A stretch of 64,000 bases of DNA from positions 1 through 64,000 of the forward strand of contig JAFWIE010000031.1 in the NCBI GenBank assembly GCA_017533825.1, in the 5' to 3' direction. Each line of letters opens with the position of its first letter. The stretch's first letter is position 1. Positions 35,619 to 45,233 of the stretch are shown here, piece by piece. The stretch comes from Atopobiaceae bacterium (GTDB lineage Bacteria; Actinomycetota; Coriobacteriia; Coriobacteriales; Atopobiaceae). The position numbers and the translations under genes were made by a program. The notes beneath the pieces were generated by a model that worked only from the letters and a program-made list of their open reading frames with translations, made no database searches and was not told the origin of the DNA.

Positions 35619-36926
35619 TCAGCGTCCCAAGAGTGGCAGCCTGACGCGCTGCGTCGGACGCATGCGCCGCTCCGCAAGCGTGGCGCCACAATACTGCTCC
35701 GCCGCAACCGCTTCCTGGGGGATGCGCAAGTCATCCGCTATCACGCGCAAATATGTCTCGAGCCGCGCTCGATTGAGTTGCGCGGCAAGGTCTATGCCGT
35801 TGTGCAGCAGGCGCGTCGCCCCACCTGCGACGGGAAGCTCCTCATCCACGCCAGCATCGAGCATGGCCTCGTACGCGCCGATAAGCAGCTCTATCTCGCG
35901 TTCCTCTCGGAGCTGCTCATACGCCAAGATTCCAGGCCGATCAATGTCTCCCCAGTAGAGGTAGCGGACGGGGCCACCTCGCGAAAACAGGCGCTCGGTC
36001 TCGTCGAGCACCCCTTCCCGCGATACGGCCGAACCCGCCCCATAGATGACGCCGTCCACATGGCGACCAAAGAAACGATGCCGCCCGCGCTTGAGCTCCT
36101 CTTGCAGCCGAACGTAAGGTACGTGGTTCTCGACGATGAGCATACTGAGGTTCTTGCGCATGCCATAGGGCAGGTAGTGTTGCAGCGTCGGGGCCACCTC
36201 GATGATGGCAAGCCGTTCGAGCACGCCCACAGACTTGAGCAGCGAGTGCAGACGCACCCCCTCACGCGGCTCCGAGCGCGGCGACAACAGCTTCTCGTTG
36301 CGGAAGACCTCGTACGACCGCTCTTCGAGCAGCACGGGATCCACATCCCCCTCATGACAGTCCAACCACGCGCTCACGGCACGCAGCTCCTTGTACCATG
36401 CCTTGGCAAAGGGTAGGTTACTCGCCAGATAGCCATTCGCCGTGAGCTCAGGAGACAGATTGCTGAGATATCCCGAGAGGTCGGGGCCGCTCGCCGCGCG
36501 CGAAGCCTGTGTCCCAGGCGTCGGAACCGTCGCAACGGGCTTCTGCGGCGTCGACTTCGCAGGTGCATCGCCATTCGGCTTCGGCGCTTGCCTATCAGCC
36601 GGACCTTCTGCCGCGCTCGCGGACGATCGGGCGGACGCGCTCGCGACGCTTTGCGGACGAAGGCCAAGGTTCTGGGGCGGTTCGTCAGCGATGCGATACT
36701 CACGGTAGATGGGCCGCTTCTCGGAACCCTTGGCAAGCGAGGTGGTCGACGCCTCAATCGCCTTCGCGGCAACCAACGGTGCGATAACGCGATCGTACTG
36801 GAGGTTGCTGCTCGGCGTTCCACAGAGCTTGTCGAGCCTGCGCCACGTGAGCGTACCACCCGGATGGGATCGAACGTATGCCTCAACGTTGTTGAGCGCA
36901 GAGTCGCTGACGGTCTTTTGTGCCAC
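35619..36926 (-). CDS. JetD-like Toprim protein (DUF2220), solitary
   Basis: A 435-residue protein. The C-terminal 200 residues match the Wadjet JetD/DUF2220 Toprim type: an invariant Glu in SMLIVENHVPYVRL and an Asp-x-Asp in YLYWGDIDRPGILAYEQL, the metal ligands of topoisomerase VI-like nucleases. The middle has the usual JetD arm features (LDCHEGDVDPVLLEERSYEVFRNEKLL). The N-terminus (1-75) is winged-helix-like, followed by an Ala/Pro/Ser linker. No jetA, jetB or jetC (SMC-like) gene is nearby, so this is an orphan. The GTG start is supported by AAAGGA. Confidence 0.75.
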   Translation of the reverse strand: MAQKTVSDSALNNVEAYVRSHPGGTLTWRRLDKLCGTPSSNLQYDRVIAPLVAAKAIEASTTSLAKGSEKRPIYREYRIADEPPQNLGLRPQSVASASARSSASAAEGPADRQAPKPNGDAPAKSTPQKPVATVPTPGTQASRAASGPDLSGYLSNLSPELTANGYLASNLPFAKAWYKELRAVSAWLDCHEGDVDPVLLEERSYEVFRNEKLLSPRSEPREGVRLHSLLKSVGVLERLAIIEVAPTLQHYLPYGMRKNLSMLIVENHVPYVRLQEELKRGRHRFFGRHVDGVIYGAGSAVSREGVLDETERLFSRGGPVRYLYWGDIDRPGILAYEQLREEREIELLIGAYEAMLDAGVDEELPVAGGATRLLHNGIDLAAQLNRARLETYLRVIADDLRIPQEAVAAEQYCGATLAERRMRPTQRVRLPLLGR

Positions 36927-37002
36927 GTGGTTCCTTTCTTGGTTCTGGTGGCGCCGAATTCGAAGCCACGGGCCTCTTGCCCGTCGACAAGCGCCCGACG
37001 TC

Positions 37003-39994: not shown

Positions 39995-42900
39995 TCAGAG
40001 CGCGGCTTCAATCTTGTCGAAGATGGTATCGGGCAGCTCGTCGCCCTCAAGCACGAAGCCCTTACCCTCGCGGAAGTTCTCCTTCGCCACCGAAATCATG
40101 AGCTTGATGCGGTTGAGCTGGTTGACCTCGCTCGCACCGGGATCGTAGTCCACAGCCACGATGTTGCTCTGCGGATGCAGCTGCCGCAGGCGCTTGATCA
40201 CGCTCTTGCCCACCACGTGGTTGGGCAGGCAGGCGAACGGCGAGGCGCAGATGATGTTCGGCGTGCCCGTCTCGATGAGCTCCACCATCTCGGCCGTGAG
40301 CAGCCAGCCCTCACCCATCGTGTTGCAAAGCGAGAGGATCTCCTCGGCCTTCTTGCCCAAGTCAAAGATCTGCGTATAGGGCTCAAAGCGCTCGCTCTCC
40401 TCGAGCATCTTGTTGATGGGAGCGCGCAGCGCGTCGATGGCGGCAATGCCGATGCCGTGCGTCACGCGATTTTTGCGCTTGGTGCCGAGTTCATGCCTGA
40501 GGTTGATCTGGTTGGACGTGCCAAAGAGGAAGAAGTCCAGAAGCCCGGGCACATTCGCCTCACAGCCCTCCGCCTCGATGACGTGCACGACGTCGTTGTT
40601 TGCCGTGGGGTGGAACTTGACGAGAATCTCGCCCACCACACCGACGCGCGGCTTCGAACGGTCGTTCACGAGCGGCAGCGCATCGAACGCCTGCACCGTG
40701 TCGCGGCAGAGGCGATAGAACGTCTTGCGCGACGCGCGCGGCACCTGCACCTTGGCACGGCCCATGAACTCGCCATAGAGCCTGTCGGCCGCACCCGGCT
40801 CCGCCTCGTAGGGACGCGTGCGATACAGGCACTGCATGATGAGGTCACCGTAGAGCAGCGAGTAGATGGCGCTCATCACGAGGCTCGGCTTCAAGACCTT
40901 GAAGCCCGGATTCGACTCGTCGAGACCACCCGCCACCGAAAGCGAGATGACGGGAATCTCGGGATGGCCCGACTCCTTGAGCGCCTTGCGGATAAGCGCG
41001 ATGTAATTGGTCGCGCGACAGCCGCCGCCCGTCTGGGAGATGAGCACTGCGGTGCGCTTGAGGTCGTACTTGCCCGAGAGAACCGCGTTGATCAGCTGCC
41101 CCGTCACCAGAATCGAGGGATAGCAGATGTCGTTGTTCACGTACTTGAGGCCCGCATCCACCGCACCGTGGTCCACCGACGGAAGCAGCACGACGTTGTA
41201 ACCCGCATCTCGCAGCACGGCTTCCACGATTTCGAAGTGTATGGGCGACATCTGGGGCGCAAGGATGGTGTAGCCACTCTCCTGCATCTCCTTGGTGAAG
41301 CGCACCTTCTGGAACGCGGCGCTCTCCGAGGCACGATACACCGGCGGCCTGCGGCGCAGGTCCGTCTGGCGCGCCTGCTCGAGCGTGCCGTCGGCCATGA
41401 GCACCTCAGGCGGCTGAATCTCCTTGACCTCGCCTCGCTCGACCTGCAAATCGAGCTTCTCGCGCTCCTCCTCGAGGGCCGCCATGAGGGAGCGGATGCG
41501 AATTCGTGCGGCGCCGAGGTTCGAGACCTCGTCGATCTTGAGCACGGTGTAGATCTTGTCGCTGGCCTCCAGGATTTCCTGCACCTGGTCGCACGTGAGC
41601 GCGTCCAGACCGCAGCCGAAGCTGTTGAGCTGGATGAGGTCCAGATCGTTGCGCGAGGCGACGAAGCGCGCCGCACGATACAGGCGGCTGTGGTACATCC
41701 ACTGATCGACCACGCGGATGGGTCGCTCGGGACGCATCTTGTGGGCAACGCTGTCCTCGGTGAGCACGGCAAAGCCGAAGCTGTTCACCAACTCGGGAAT
41801 GGCATGGTTGATCTCGGGGTCATTGTGATAGGGGCGCCCGGCGATCACGATGCCATGACCGTCGTGCTCCTCGATCCACGCGAGCGTCTCGTCACCCAAG
41901 CGATGCATCTGTTCCTTGAACTCGAGGTCTGCCTGCCAAGCCGCGTCGACGGCGGCATCAATCTGCTTCCGCGTGATGCGCGTCCCGTGGAAGCGACCCT
42001 TGCCCTGCTTGGCATCCTCTTCACGCTGCACCGAGACGACCTCGTACAGACGCCGCTTGAGCTCCTTCTTATCGTCGTAGGGCAAGAATGGCGCGAGGTA
42101 CTGCACCTCGTGCGCGCCGAGCTCGTCGACGTTGAGTTCGAGCGCCTGCGGATAGCTCATCACGATGGGGCAGTTGTAGTGGTTGGTCGCCGTCTCGTCC
42201 TCCTGGCGCTCCCAACGCACGCAGGGCATCCAGATGAAGTCCACGTCCTTCGCGAGCAGGTTCATGATGTGGCCATGGCTCAGCTTCGCGGGGTAGCAGA
42301 CGCTCTCGCTCGGCATGGACTCGATGCCAGCCTCGTAGATGCGCTTGGTCGACTGGTCGGAGAGAACGACCGAGAAGCCAAGCCGCGTGAAGAACTCGTG
42401 CCAGAAGGGGTAGTTCTCGTACATGTTGAGCGCACGCGGGATTCCCACGGTACCGCGGGGTGCGTCTTGAGGCGCGAGGCCCTCGCGCTCGAAGAGGAGC
42501 TCATTCTTCCGCTTGAAGAGATTGGGCGCCTCCACCTTGCCCTTGCGCGAACGACCGGAACCCTTCTCGCAGCGATTGCCAGTGATGAAGCGATGGCCAC
42601 CGCCGAAGTCGTTGATGGTGAGGAGGCAGTTGTTGGAGCAACGCCCGCAGTTGACCTTGGTGAGTTTGACGGAGAGCTCGTTGAGGGCGCGCCGGCCGAG
42701 CACCGTGGAGGTGCCGTCGCGCCCCGCGCGGTCGCGCGCGAGCAGCGCCGCACCGTACGCACCCATCGAGCCGGCGATGTCGGGACGAATAACCTCGCGT
42801 CCCGTGAGCAGCTCGAACGCGCGCAGTGTCGCGTCACTCATGAAGGTACCGCCCTGCACCACGATATGCGCCCCAATCTCGTCGTAGTCGCGCAGCTTGA

Positions 42901-44569
42901 TGACCTTAAAGAGTGCGTTCTTGATAACCGAGTACGAGAGGCCCGCCGCCACGTCGCCGATGGTCGCGCCTTCCTTCTGGGCCTGCTTGACGCGCGAGTT
43001 CATGAACACCGTGCAACGGCTGCCGAGGTCCACGGGATGCTCCCCCGCCACGGCCGCCTGCGCGAACTCCTGCACCGTCATGCCCATGGAGTCGGCGAAG
43101 CTCGCCACGAACGAGCCGCAGCCCGACGAACAGGCCTCGTTGAGCGCGATGTGCTCGATGACGCCGTCCTTGACCTGCAGACACTTCATGTCCTGGCCAC
43201 CGATGTCGAGAATGAACTCGACGTCCGGCACAAAGGCCTGGGCCCCACGGAGGTGGGCGACCGTCTCGACCTCACCCGAATCGGCACGCAGCGCCTCGAT
43301 GAGGATGCCCTCGCCGTAACCGGTGGTGGTGACGTGACCGATCGTGCAGTCTGCGGGCATGTGGTCGTAGATGTCGTTCATGATGGCGCGCGCCGTACCG
43401 AGGACGTCGCCGTTGTTGACGTCATACCACGTGTAGAGCAGCTCGCCATCCTCGCCCACCACGGCAGCCTTGAGCGTGGTGGAACCAGCATCGATGCCGA
43501 TGAAGACACGCCCGTGGTACTCGTCAAGCATGCCCTTGGGCACGACTTCGGTGTCGTGGCGCGCGTGGAACGCGTCAAGCTCGACCGCGCTGGCAAAGAG
43601 CGGGTCTAGGCGGGCGACCTCGGTGCCCTGGGTGTCCTTGAGCGCCGCCAGCGCATCGATGACCTGCGCAAACGTTACGAACTTATCCGTCTCGCCAGCC
43701 AATGCCGCACCCGTCGCCACAAAGAGGTGCGCGTTCTGCGGCACGATGCGGTGCTCCTCGTCCAAGTTGAGCGTAAGGTAGAAGCGCTCGCGCAGCTCGC
43801 TGAGGTACTGCAGGGGGCCGCCGAGAAAGGCGACGTAGCCTCGTATGGGATGGCCGCAGGCAAGGCCGGAGACCGTCTGGTTCGCGACTGCCTGGAAGAT
43901 AGAGGCTGCGATGTCGGCAGGGGCGGCGCCCTCGTTGAGGAGCGGCTGCACGTCCGACTTCGCAAAGACGCCGCAGCGGCTCGCGATGGGATAGATGTGC
44001 GTGGCGGACTTCGCCAGCTCGTTGAGGCCGGACGCATCGGTCTTGAGCAGCGATGCCATCTGGTCGATGAAGGCGCCCGTGCCGCCGGCACAGGTACCGT
44101 TCATGCGCTGCTCGATGCCGTTGTCGAAGTAGATGATCTTTGCGTCCTCGCCGCCGAGCTCGATGGCGCAATCCGTCTGGGGAATGAGCGCCTCCACCGC
44201 GCGCTTGCTCGCGATGACCTCTTGGACGAACTCGAGGTCAAGCCAGGTGGCAAGCAGCATGCCGCCCGAGCCGGTGATGGACACGCGCATCGGAGCGTCG
44301 CCGATCACGCGGCGCGCACGCTCAAAGAGCTCCGTCGCCGTGGCGCGGATGTCGGTGTGATGACGCTCGTAGTTCGCGTACACCAAGTTCGAGTTGCCGT
44401 CGATGACCGCCAGCTTGACGGTGGTTGACCCGACGTCAATCCCGAGCCGAAGCCTGGCATGTCGGAAGTCCACATGGCTGCGGGGCTTGAGCTCGGCGCC
44501 GTCAGCGACGAGGGCTACAAATGGCTTCGCGGCACTCTGGGCCGCAGAAGACTGGCTGGTCCTAACCAT
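39995..44569 (-). CDS. fused 2-hydroxyacyl-CoA dehydratase/activase-type protein
   Basis: A 1524-residue cytoplasmic iron-sulfur protein. Two BcrAD/BadFG ATPase activase modules come first (GIDVGSTTVKLAVID near 42 and GIDAGSTTLKAAVV near 356), each with a GGEDAK/GGQDMK loop; the second has the cluster ligands NEACSSGCGSF near 480. GRCSNNC (about 640) and DUF2229-type sequence follow, then an HgdB-like C-terminal half (LNSFGCGLDALTC near 980, QTGGGCRATNY, CASPFACLPNHVVGK). Family members reduce or activate radical dehydration of 2-hydroxyacyl-CoA in amino-acid fermentation; the true substrate is unproven. Its ATG overlaps the TetR stop by 8 bases. GAGGAG is 7 bases upstream. Confidence 0.9.
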   Translation of the reverse strand: MVRTSQSSAAQSAAKPFVALVADGAELKPRSHVDFRHARLRLGIDVGSTTVKLAVIDGNSNLVYANYERHHTDIRATATELFERARRVIGDAPMRVSITGSGGMLLATWLDLEFVQEVIASKRAVEALIPQTDCAIELGGEDAKIIYFDNGIEQRMNGTCAGGTGAFIDQMASLLKTDASGLNELAKSATHIYPIASRCGVFAKSDVQPLLNEGAAPADIAASIFQAVANQTVSGLACGHPIRGYVAFLGGPLQYLSELRERFYLTLNLDEEHRIVPQNAHLFVATGAALAGETDKFVTFAQVIDALAALKDTQGTEVARLDPLFASAVELDAFHARHDTEVVPKGMLDEYHGRVFIGIDAGSTTLKAAVVGEDGELLYTWYDVNNGDVLGTARAIMNDIYDHMPADCTIGHVTTTGYGEGILIEALRADSGEVETVAHLRGAQAFVPDVEFILDIGGQDMKCLQVKDGVIEHIALNEACSSGCGSFVASFADSMGMTVQEFAQAAVAGEHPVDLGSRCTVFMNSRVKQAQKEGATIGDVAAGLSYSVIKNALFKVIKLRDYDEIGAHIVVQGGTFMSDATLRAFELLTGREVIRPDIAGSMGAYGAALLARDRAGRDGTSTVLGRRALNELSVKLTKVNCGRCSNNCLLTINDFGGGHRFITGNRCEKGSGRSRKGKVEAPNLFKRKNELLFEREGLAPQDAPRGTVGIPRALNMYENYPFWHEFFTRLGFSVVLSDQSTKRIYEAGIESMPSESVCYPAKLSHGHIMNLLAKDVDFIWMPCVRWERQEDETATNHYNCPIVMSYPQALELNVDELGAHEVQYLAPFLPYDDKKELKRRLYEVVSVQREEDAKQGKGRFHGTRITRKQIDAAVDAAWQADLEFKEQMHRLGDETLAWIEEHDGHGIVIAGRPYHNDPEINHAIPELVNSFGFAVLTEDSVAHKMRPERPIRVVDQWMYHSRLYRAARFVASRNDLDLIQLNSFGCGLDALTCDQVQEILEASDKIYTVLKIDEVSNLGAARIRIRSLMAALEEEREKLDLQVERGEVKEIQPPEVLMADGTLEQARQTDLRRRPPVYRASESAAFQKVRFTKEMQESGYTILAPQMSPIHFEIVEAVLRDAGYNVVLLPSVDHGAVDAGLKYVNNDICYPSILVTGQLINAVLSGKYDLKRTAVLISQTGGGCRATNYIALIRKALKESGHPEIPVISLSVAGGLDESNPGFKVLKPSLVMSAIYSLLYGDLIMQCLYRTRPYEAEPGAADRLYGEFMGRAKVQVPRASRKTFYRLCRDTVQAFDALPLVNDRSKPRVGVVGEILVKFHPTANNDVVHVIEAEGCEANVPGLLDFFLFGTSNQINLRHELGTKRKNRVTHGIGIAAIDALRAPINKMLEESERFEPYTQIFDLGKKAEEILSLCNTMGEGWLLTAEMVELIETGTPNIICASPFACLPNHVVGKSVIKRLRQLHPQSNIVAVDYDPGASEVNQLNRIKLMISVAKENFREGKGFVLEGDELPDTIFDKIEAAL

Positions 44570-45233
44570 GGACGTGCTCCTCTCTCGTCTCCGCCAAGCT
44601 TGCGGAGGCATTCACCAAGTTGAAGTCGATGGGTCGCCCGTAGAGGTCTCCCGGACGCACGAACATGAGGGCGGTCATCACCCGTGCCATCATGTCGTCG
44701 GTCTCCACCATCCCTGTCGTGAGCCATCGAATGAGGACCCCAACCTCGGCCGATATGGCAAAGGTCAGGTAGTAGTCGAAGCCGGCCTCGACCAACGGCG
44801 AGAATCCCTGATGTGCACGTGCCTCGACGACCTCGCGCACCAAATGCTTGAGGCGGGCCACGAACGCGGGGTCGCCTCCCTCACCTAAGAGGGCGCTCAA
44901 CAGCTCGCCGTTCTCGCGGAAGTATGCCAAGAGCTCCGTCACTCCGGGACACGGATTGAACACCTGGATAGCTTGCTCGAGCTCGGGCAGGGTGACGTTG
45001 GAGATGCTCTGTACGAGGGGCACGAGATCGGCTGCGGTCTCCTCCTCGATGGAACGAACCAGGGTCGGAATGTCTCGATAATGCGAATAGAACGTGCGGC
45101 GCGTCACGTCGGCACGCTTGGTGACTCCCGTCACCGTGACCTTAGAAAGGTCGCCCAGATCATGAATCTCGGCCGCCAACGCCTCGCGGAGGGCAAGCCG
45201 CGTACGTAGGCTGCGTCGGTCAGTTGCTCCCAC
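44562..45233 (-). CDS. TetR-family transcriptional regulator
   Basis: A 223-residue regulator with an N-terminal TetR helix-turn-helix (ALAAEIHDLGDLSKVTVTGVTKRADVTRRTFYSHYRDI) and an all-helical ligand domain. The GTG start follows AGGAG at 6 bases; an ATG four bases earlier is out of frame. It overlaps the dehydratase start by 8 bases, so the pair is one operon and the regulator probably controls it through the inverted repeat just upstream. Confidence 0.92.
   Translation of the reverse strand: MGATDRRSLRTRLALREALAAEIHDLGDLSKVTVTGVTKRADVTRRTFYSHYRDIPTLVRSIEEETAADLVPLVQSISNVTLPELEQAIQVFNPCPGVTELLAYFRENGELLSALLGEGGDPAFVARLKHLVREVVEARAHQGFSPLVEAGFDYYLTFAISAEVGVLIRWLTTGMVETDDMMARVMTALMFVRPGDLYGRPIDFNLVNASASLAETREEHVHG

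Follow-up and report, generated by a model that had tools for sequence, protein, structure and literature searches.

In the current understanding of Wadjet, the decision falls to the SMC motor and the cut is made by JetD. JetD is a type of nuclease that normally serves a four-part anti-plasmid machine. According to the part of PMC10586767 considered here, a high concentration is required for JetD alone to cut DNA, and JetD is likely autoinhibited before JetABC comes into action. With a divalent metal, MksG cuts plasmid DNA without need for MksBEF or ATP, and it has no tyrosine at the CAP position (PMC10123090, in the portion considered). A Wadjet-type piece that also survived the break-up of its system is described for P. 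aeruginosa, i.e., MksBEF, which likely arose through JetD loss (same portion of PMC10586767). MksBEF keeps the SMC part and has lost the nuclease, whereas the gene described here encodes a nuclease that persists in the absence of the SMC part. Searches of one open-access library of journal papers returned no account of a solitary JetD.

The window, i.e., the whole stretch of DNA analysed, is 64,000 nucleotides long and comes from an Atopobiaceae bacterium (GCA_017533825.1, contig JAFWIE010000031.1). The solitary JetD3-like gene is localized at 35619-36926 on the minus strand. It is an open reading frame of 435 amino acids plus stop, with a GTG start, and is matched by PADLOC and Pfam models. 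A likely ribosome-binding site, AGAAAGGA, is seen by eye 5 nt 5' of the GTG (36932-36939, minus strand). The GTG start and the sequence are also kept in an 83%-identical homologue of genome G014. The PADLOC JetD3 models (Wadjet type III) give a strong match (best E 3.8e-36), and the JetD1 models are far behind them. The Pfam match to JetD_C (PF09983, presumably the renamed DUF2220) is borderline, i.e., 22.4 bits vs. a cut-off of 22 (E 8e-5). The NCBIfam scan assigned no family to five relatives or to P0001. No JetA/B/C-like sequence is found within the 12 kb stretch around the gene, the only JetA matches of the genome being on other contigs; the JetD-JetA-JetB-JetC order of a Wadjet type III operon is thus absent from the locus.

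All the protein features are encoded on the minus strand. The N-terminal winged-helix domain (residues 8-79; 36690-36905), recognized from the AlphaFold model, the VIA-align row for 1cf7 and conservation, contains a near-invariant Tyr77. It is followed by a disordered linker (residues 94-146; 36489-36647) with pLDDT < 50, which appears as a gap in alignment A2 and is mostly missing from 48%-identical relatives. A helical arm (residues 150-250; 36177-36479) joins the winged helix and the Toprim domain (residues 258-410; 35697-36155) in the AlphaFold model, the latter domain being also aligned by VIA-align to 8b7f and 7til. The catalytic Glu266 of the VEN motif (codon at 36129-36131), Asp327-x-Asp329 of the YWGDIDR motif (35940-35948) and Pro403-Gln404-Glu405 (PQE, 35712-35720) are invariant in the 18/18 rows of A1 (solitary relatives) and in the 41/41 rows of A4 (solitary plus operon-borne relatives). 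On the basis of curated models, metal ligands and fold, the protein belongs to the JetD family. These results bear out what the sequence-only reading had claimed for this place: a JetD-like Toprim protein (the ORF is exact and intact, with a JetD3 E-value of 4e-36), Glu and Asp-x-Asp ligands, a winged-helix-like N-terminus and a gene that stands alone. The profile search which it had proposed as a check returns JetD as the family, by JetD_C as well as by PADLOC JetD3.

The AlphaFold model (input A4) has a mean pLDDT of 83.9 and displays, in this order, the winged helix, the disordered linker, the helical arm and the Toprim domain. The winged helix is made of helices 8-20, 28-35 and 40-53 and of strands 57-79, mostly with pLDDT > 90. 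Its residues 1-80 align with 1cf7 (which we take to be E2F-DP, a winged-helix protein) with a VIA-align Z of 6.4, i.e., weaker than the Toprim matches. The top Foldseek match in the PDB is C. glutamicum MksG (8b7f, E 2.2e-4), the sole one with E < 0.001, and topoisomerase VI-A comes next (E 0.02). VIA-align gives Z 11.3 for MksG 8b7f (140 residues, 3.2 Å), Z 9.3 for JetD 7til (141 residues, 3.7 Å) and Z 8.7 for topoisomerase VI-A 1d3y (149 residues, 4.2 Å), all of them inside residues 247-416. Sequence profiles reach the JetD and MksG of the PDB weakly (E 0.46 and 0.066, respectively). The model of a clade B protein (clades are described below) has a pLDDT of 86.2 and the same layout as that of the clade A solitary JetD; VIA-align matches it best to topoisomerase VI-A (Z 8.4) and to JetD (Z 7.8, rmsd 11.2).

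The protein resembles the JetD of Wadjet type III by its JetD3 profile, by the order of winged helix and Toprim, by E plus D-x-D and by PQE. It differs from it by the absence of adjoining JetA/B/C and of a Y-x-T-P-E stretch. The latter, located before the Toprim domain, is 91-100% conserved in 23 operon-borne type III rows, and the 6 rows of clade A and the 11 of clade B no longer have it; it is a feature found in the present analysis and not a published definition of type III. Its loss fits a lost JetABC contact without proving it. MksG 8b7f (Corynebacterium glutamicum) and JetD 7til (Pseudomonas aeruginosa) are the best folds and share the Toprim metal site. However, their identity to the solitary JetD is 17-19% over ~140 residues, and both belong to SMC systems as type I subunits (PMC10123090 and PMC10586767, in the portions considered). 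Topoisomerase VI-A and Spo11 share the Toprim fold with a lower score (VIA Z 8.7 and 7.6, respectively), a relation by fold alone, and may differ in the catalytic tyrosine, for which no residue at a matching place is identified in the solitary JetD. Tyr77 (codon at 36696-36698 of the window) is near-invariant in operon-borne as well as in solitary rows, whereas type I MksG has no CAP tyrosine candidate in the portion of PMC10123090 considered. Judging from conservation, Tyr77 of the winged helix is a candidate Spo11-like catalytic residue that is worth checking.

Among 80 named relatives, 37 have JetABC downstream (in a few of these loci the contig stops after A, or after A and B), 7 are truncated by the end of their contig and 36 are without JetABC. 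The operon-borne relatives are mostly from Bacillota, with the gene order D-A-B-C. The JetABC-less loci are all from Coriobacteriales (36/36). Within Atopobiaceae, profile A1 has matches at E 1e-10 in 55 of 140 genomes. Genomes G010, G011 and G012 were left out of the solitary count (two have type III operons and G010 has a divergent, N-terminally short copy), which leads to 52/140 genomes, i.e., 6 for clade A, which includes the gene described here, and 46 for clade B. With profile A1, clade B is found in 25/31 genomes of g33 (which includes Thermophilibacter) and in 8/8 of g34 (which includes Tractidigestivibacter); considering only the good genomes of g33 (completeness of 90% or more, contamination of 5% or less), the solitary JetD is present in 24/25. 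The counts for other genera are 3/3 (g26), 3/3 (g27, which includes Parafannyhessea), 2/2 (g28), 2/3 (g25), 1/1 (g22), 1/1 (g5) and 1/5 (g21). In several genera, the clade B solitary JetD comes near to being a core gene. Clade A is smaller and patchier: 6 genomes (5/16 in g1, the genus of the present gene, and 1/18 in g35) with three chromosomal locations. Over the whole order, a match at E 1e-20 is found in 95 of 395 genomes, i.e., 55 from the family of the window, 39 from family f3 (30 of them in g39, which includes Collinsella) and 1 from family f4. The solitary JetD is not an oddity of one genome and is shared by numerous related bacteria of the gut.

In the tree with the Atopobiaceae Wadjet III rows, forcing clades A and B together costs 1.4 log units (p-AU 0.28), and clade A groups with JetDs from the Wadjet III systems of its genus (support 68/34). 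In the tree without these rows, clades A and B form one side of a branch (support 64/71). Loci L029, L109, L182 and L185 were excluded from both trees. In other trees the supports for clade A joining the Wadjet III rows of Atopobiaceae are 94/87 and 91/89, long branches being flagged. Clades A and B as one proven clade is not supported, a p-AU of 0.28 leaving the placement of clade A either way. The Nei-Gojobori dN/dS is 0.141 for the present gene vs. its G014 homologue, 0.073 for G015-G003 and 0.116 for G013-G003. The solitary JetD is under purifying selection, with dN/dS of 0.07-0.14 in these three pairs.

We lean towards the view, without great assurance, that the protein is a stand-alone DNA nuclease which descends from the JetD of type III Wadjet and has been freed from JetABC. 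We infer its dimerisation, cutting, switch and target as follows. Two JetD copies probably pair via their Toprim domains. In each Toprim, E266, D327 and D329 would hold a divalent metal and the DNA backbone would be cut. The winged helices would grip the duplex and, when packed together, would hold the enzyme inactive. In Wadjet, it is the JetABC loop extruder that acts as the switch. Since JetABC is either absent or serving its own JetD, the solitary enzyme would be switched on by DNA itself (i.e., by its shape) or by a partner encoded elsewhere. The solitary JetD is widely distributed and long maintained in Atopobiaceae, which agrees better with a chromosomal function than with a mobile defence gene in transit; this function would be DNA maintenance or a standing protection against foreign circular DNA. 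For clade B in particular, a chromosomal role is the better fit. A more specific proposal, tentative and rather doubtful at present, is that of a domesticated genome-maintenance nuclease of Coriobacteriales, of Spo11/topoisomerase VI-A type, derived from Wadjet, core in several genera, SMC-free and possibly making programmed or structure-triggered breaks. On the present evidence, the gene belongs to a Coriobacteriales family of solitary JetDs for which no description was found; it is not a new system.

A near-core JetD without motor provides a natural experiment that separates the motor from the nuclease, and makes the restraint and the trigger of a JetD-type nuclease testable. It suggests that a defence nuclease may become established in chromosomal life, i.e., the mirror image of MksBEF. 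It should be added that any defence-finding tool which reports a lone JetD as a partial Wadjet may mislabel a separate family.

In genomes G000 and G014 the solitary JetD comes after a tyrosine phosphatase gene and a small gene named Mem (without Pfam match, and with the look of a membrane protein by eye), downstream of Act. The latter is a 1538-aa CoA-enzyme activase (BcrAD_BadFG, DUF2229) at 39995-44611 of the window; found in 132/140 genomes of the family, it is a good positional landmark. Act is at most 10 kb from the solitary JetD in 12 of the 52 carriers (from g1, g21, g33 and g34) and at most 30 kb in 19/52, this proximity having been noticed after looking and not predefined. The two genes are on different contigs in 24/52 carriers and more than 1 Mb apart (linear coordinates) in 3/52. 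The localization of clade B near Act suggests an old chromosomal position. The suggestion is weaker for clade A. In G013, G015 and G003 the solitary JetD lies beside other genes, including a UvrD/PcrA-like helicase (by eye), and that of G128 is at another location again. The shared locus was also considered as proof of vertical descent. For the present gene it is suggestive and no proof, relatives without the solitary JetD (such as G001, G007 and G011) having kept Act, the phosphatase and Mem. A Ser/Thr protein kinase gene is located a few kb from the solitary JetD at L056 (5962-7191) and at similar g33 loci; it is identified by Pfam for L056 and by eye for the other loci of the Thermophilibacter group.

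Several points weigh against the stand-alone chromosomal nuclease that we favour: clade A is patchy with three locations, as expected of a gene that is mobile or serves defence; the solitary JetD is missing from close relatives in which Act, phosphatase and Mem are the same; the tree does not decide between clade B and the Wadjet III JetDs of the genus as the nearest kin of clade A; the Pfam score is borderline and the profile matches to the JetD and MksG of the PDB are weak. The first of these points also favours a single-gene nuclease for defence against plasmids or phages, which would sense foreign or circular DNA without SMC motor and whose clade A would have passed between lineages. Such a nuclease would have its roots in an anti-plasmid family, and in vitro, nuclease subunits are able to cut on their own (PMC10123090 and PMC10586767, in the portions considered). 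On the other hand, the gene is near-universal in several clade B genera, and the Pfam scan of nine neighbours reveals no defence-type family. Phage and plasmid records contain no match to the solitary JetD; in viral contigs, 104 stretches matched and none encodes a relative, a weak negative obtained with one pattern pair from A2. An all-against-all comparison of the neighbours at 32 loci shows no recurring partner gene across genera. The multi-genus clusters consist of the JetD gene, its antisense ORFs and the genes of the Act neighbourhood; further clusters are common to g25, g26, g34 and g5, and one set is M20-like. A single-gene defence nuclease is rather unlikely, and for clade A, the present gene included, it is a live rival.

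JetA is detected in 19/140 genomes by PF11855 and in 4/140 by the type III profile (one of these being a weak fragment). In 47 of the 52 solitary carriers neither search matches and no JetD_C is found beyond the solitary gene, the absence of JetA, that of type II included, being judged from the PF11855 and A3 profiles and from there being no other JetD_C. The five other carriers are G000, G003, G013, G014 and G021. That most carriers are without JetABC, and that JetD is built for activation by an SMC complex (PMC10586767, in the portion considered), would be in line with a nuclease partner of the housekeeping condensin Smc-ScpAB, which would replace JetABC as the switch. This is nevertheless improbable, no gene near the locus pointing to Smc-ScpAB.

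JetD_C is present three times in the assembly of the window, the solitary JetD being the third and operon-less copy. Contig C25 carries a complete type I system, i.e., JetA1, JetB1, JetC1 and JetD1 (PADLOC). Contig C125 carries a type III JetD3, JetA and JetB, then the start of a JetC cut by the contig end. Its JetA and JetB are 57% and 59% identical, respectively, to those of the complete type III operon of G011. PADLOC assigns JetB3 to the C125 JetB and JetC3 to the G011 JetC, and has no match for the JetA. A scattered Wadjet, with the solitary gene as its missing JetD, is ruled out since both JetABC sets carry their own JetD. The presence of a complete type I and of a contig-cut type III system would also allow a spare JetD used in trans by the JetABC of either type. 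This is very improbable: both systems own a JetD, no JetA is found in the 47 carriers mentioned above and the Y-x-T-P-E motif of Wadjet III JetDs is lost in both solitary clades. The same observations (the JetD of C25 and that of C125, and the 47/52 carriers without detectable JetA) weaken the suggestion of the sequence-only reading that the gene is a defence part acting with distant SMC genes. That reading had counted a jetABC with its own JetD elsewhere in the genome as evidence against it; such a set is found twice, while the solitude of the gene stands. Its two other suggestions, a domesticated nuclease and a single-gene system, both stand, and sequence alone does not separate them. Finally, a decaying remnant of a former Wadjet operon, or a DNA-binding regulator without catalytic activity, is hardly credible: the gene is alone and the disordered linker is long, but the ORF is intact, the ligands are kept in all rows, dN/dS is low (0.07-0.14) and the distribution is wide.

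Several JetD-like genes of other forms were also observed. The gene of G010 (L029, 9456-10565) is solitary and without N-terminal winged helix. The g39 proteins (two were read, of 585 and 738 aa) are much diverged and keep VEN, GDIDREG and IPQE; loci L182 (8454-10670) and L185 (7688-9445) of the Collinsella group encode solitary proteins of 585-738 aa whose middle part is of low complexity and whose JetD core is diverged. Locus L193 (7968-10121), together with the matches of G033 and G044, corresponds to a solitary JetD_C protein of ~717 aa with a central Toprim and a low-complexity tail. In Collinsella stercoris (L109, 7743-16464), a JetD3-like gene is followed, after 2 nt, by a small gene and a pPIWI-RE set, i.e., a REase, a DinG-like helicase and PIWI; one of the 30 g39 matches is apparently this pPIWI-linked copy. 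A JetD-type nuclease is possibly joined there to a prokaryotic Argonaute-like system.
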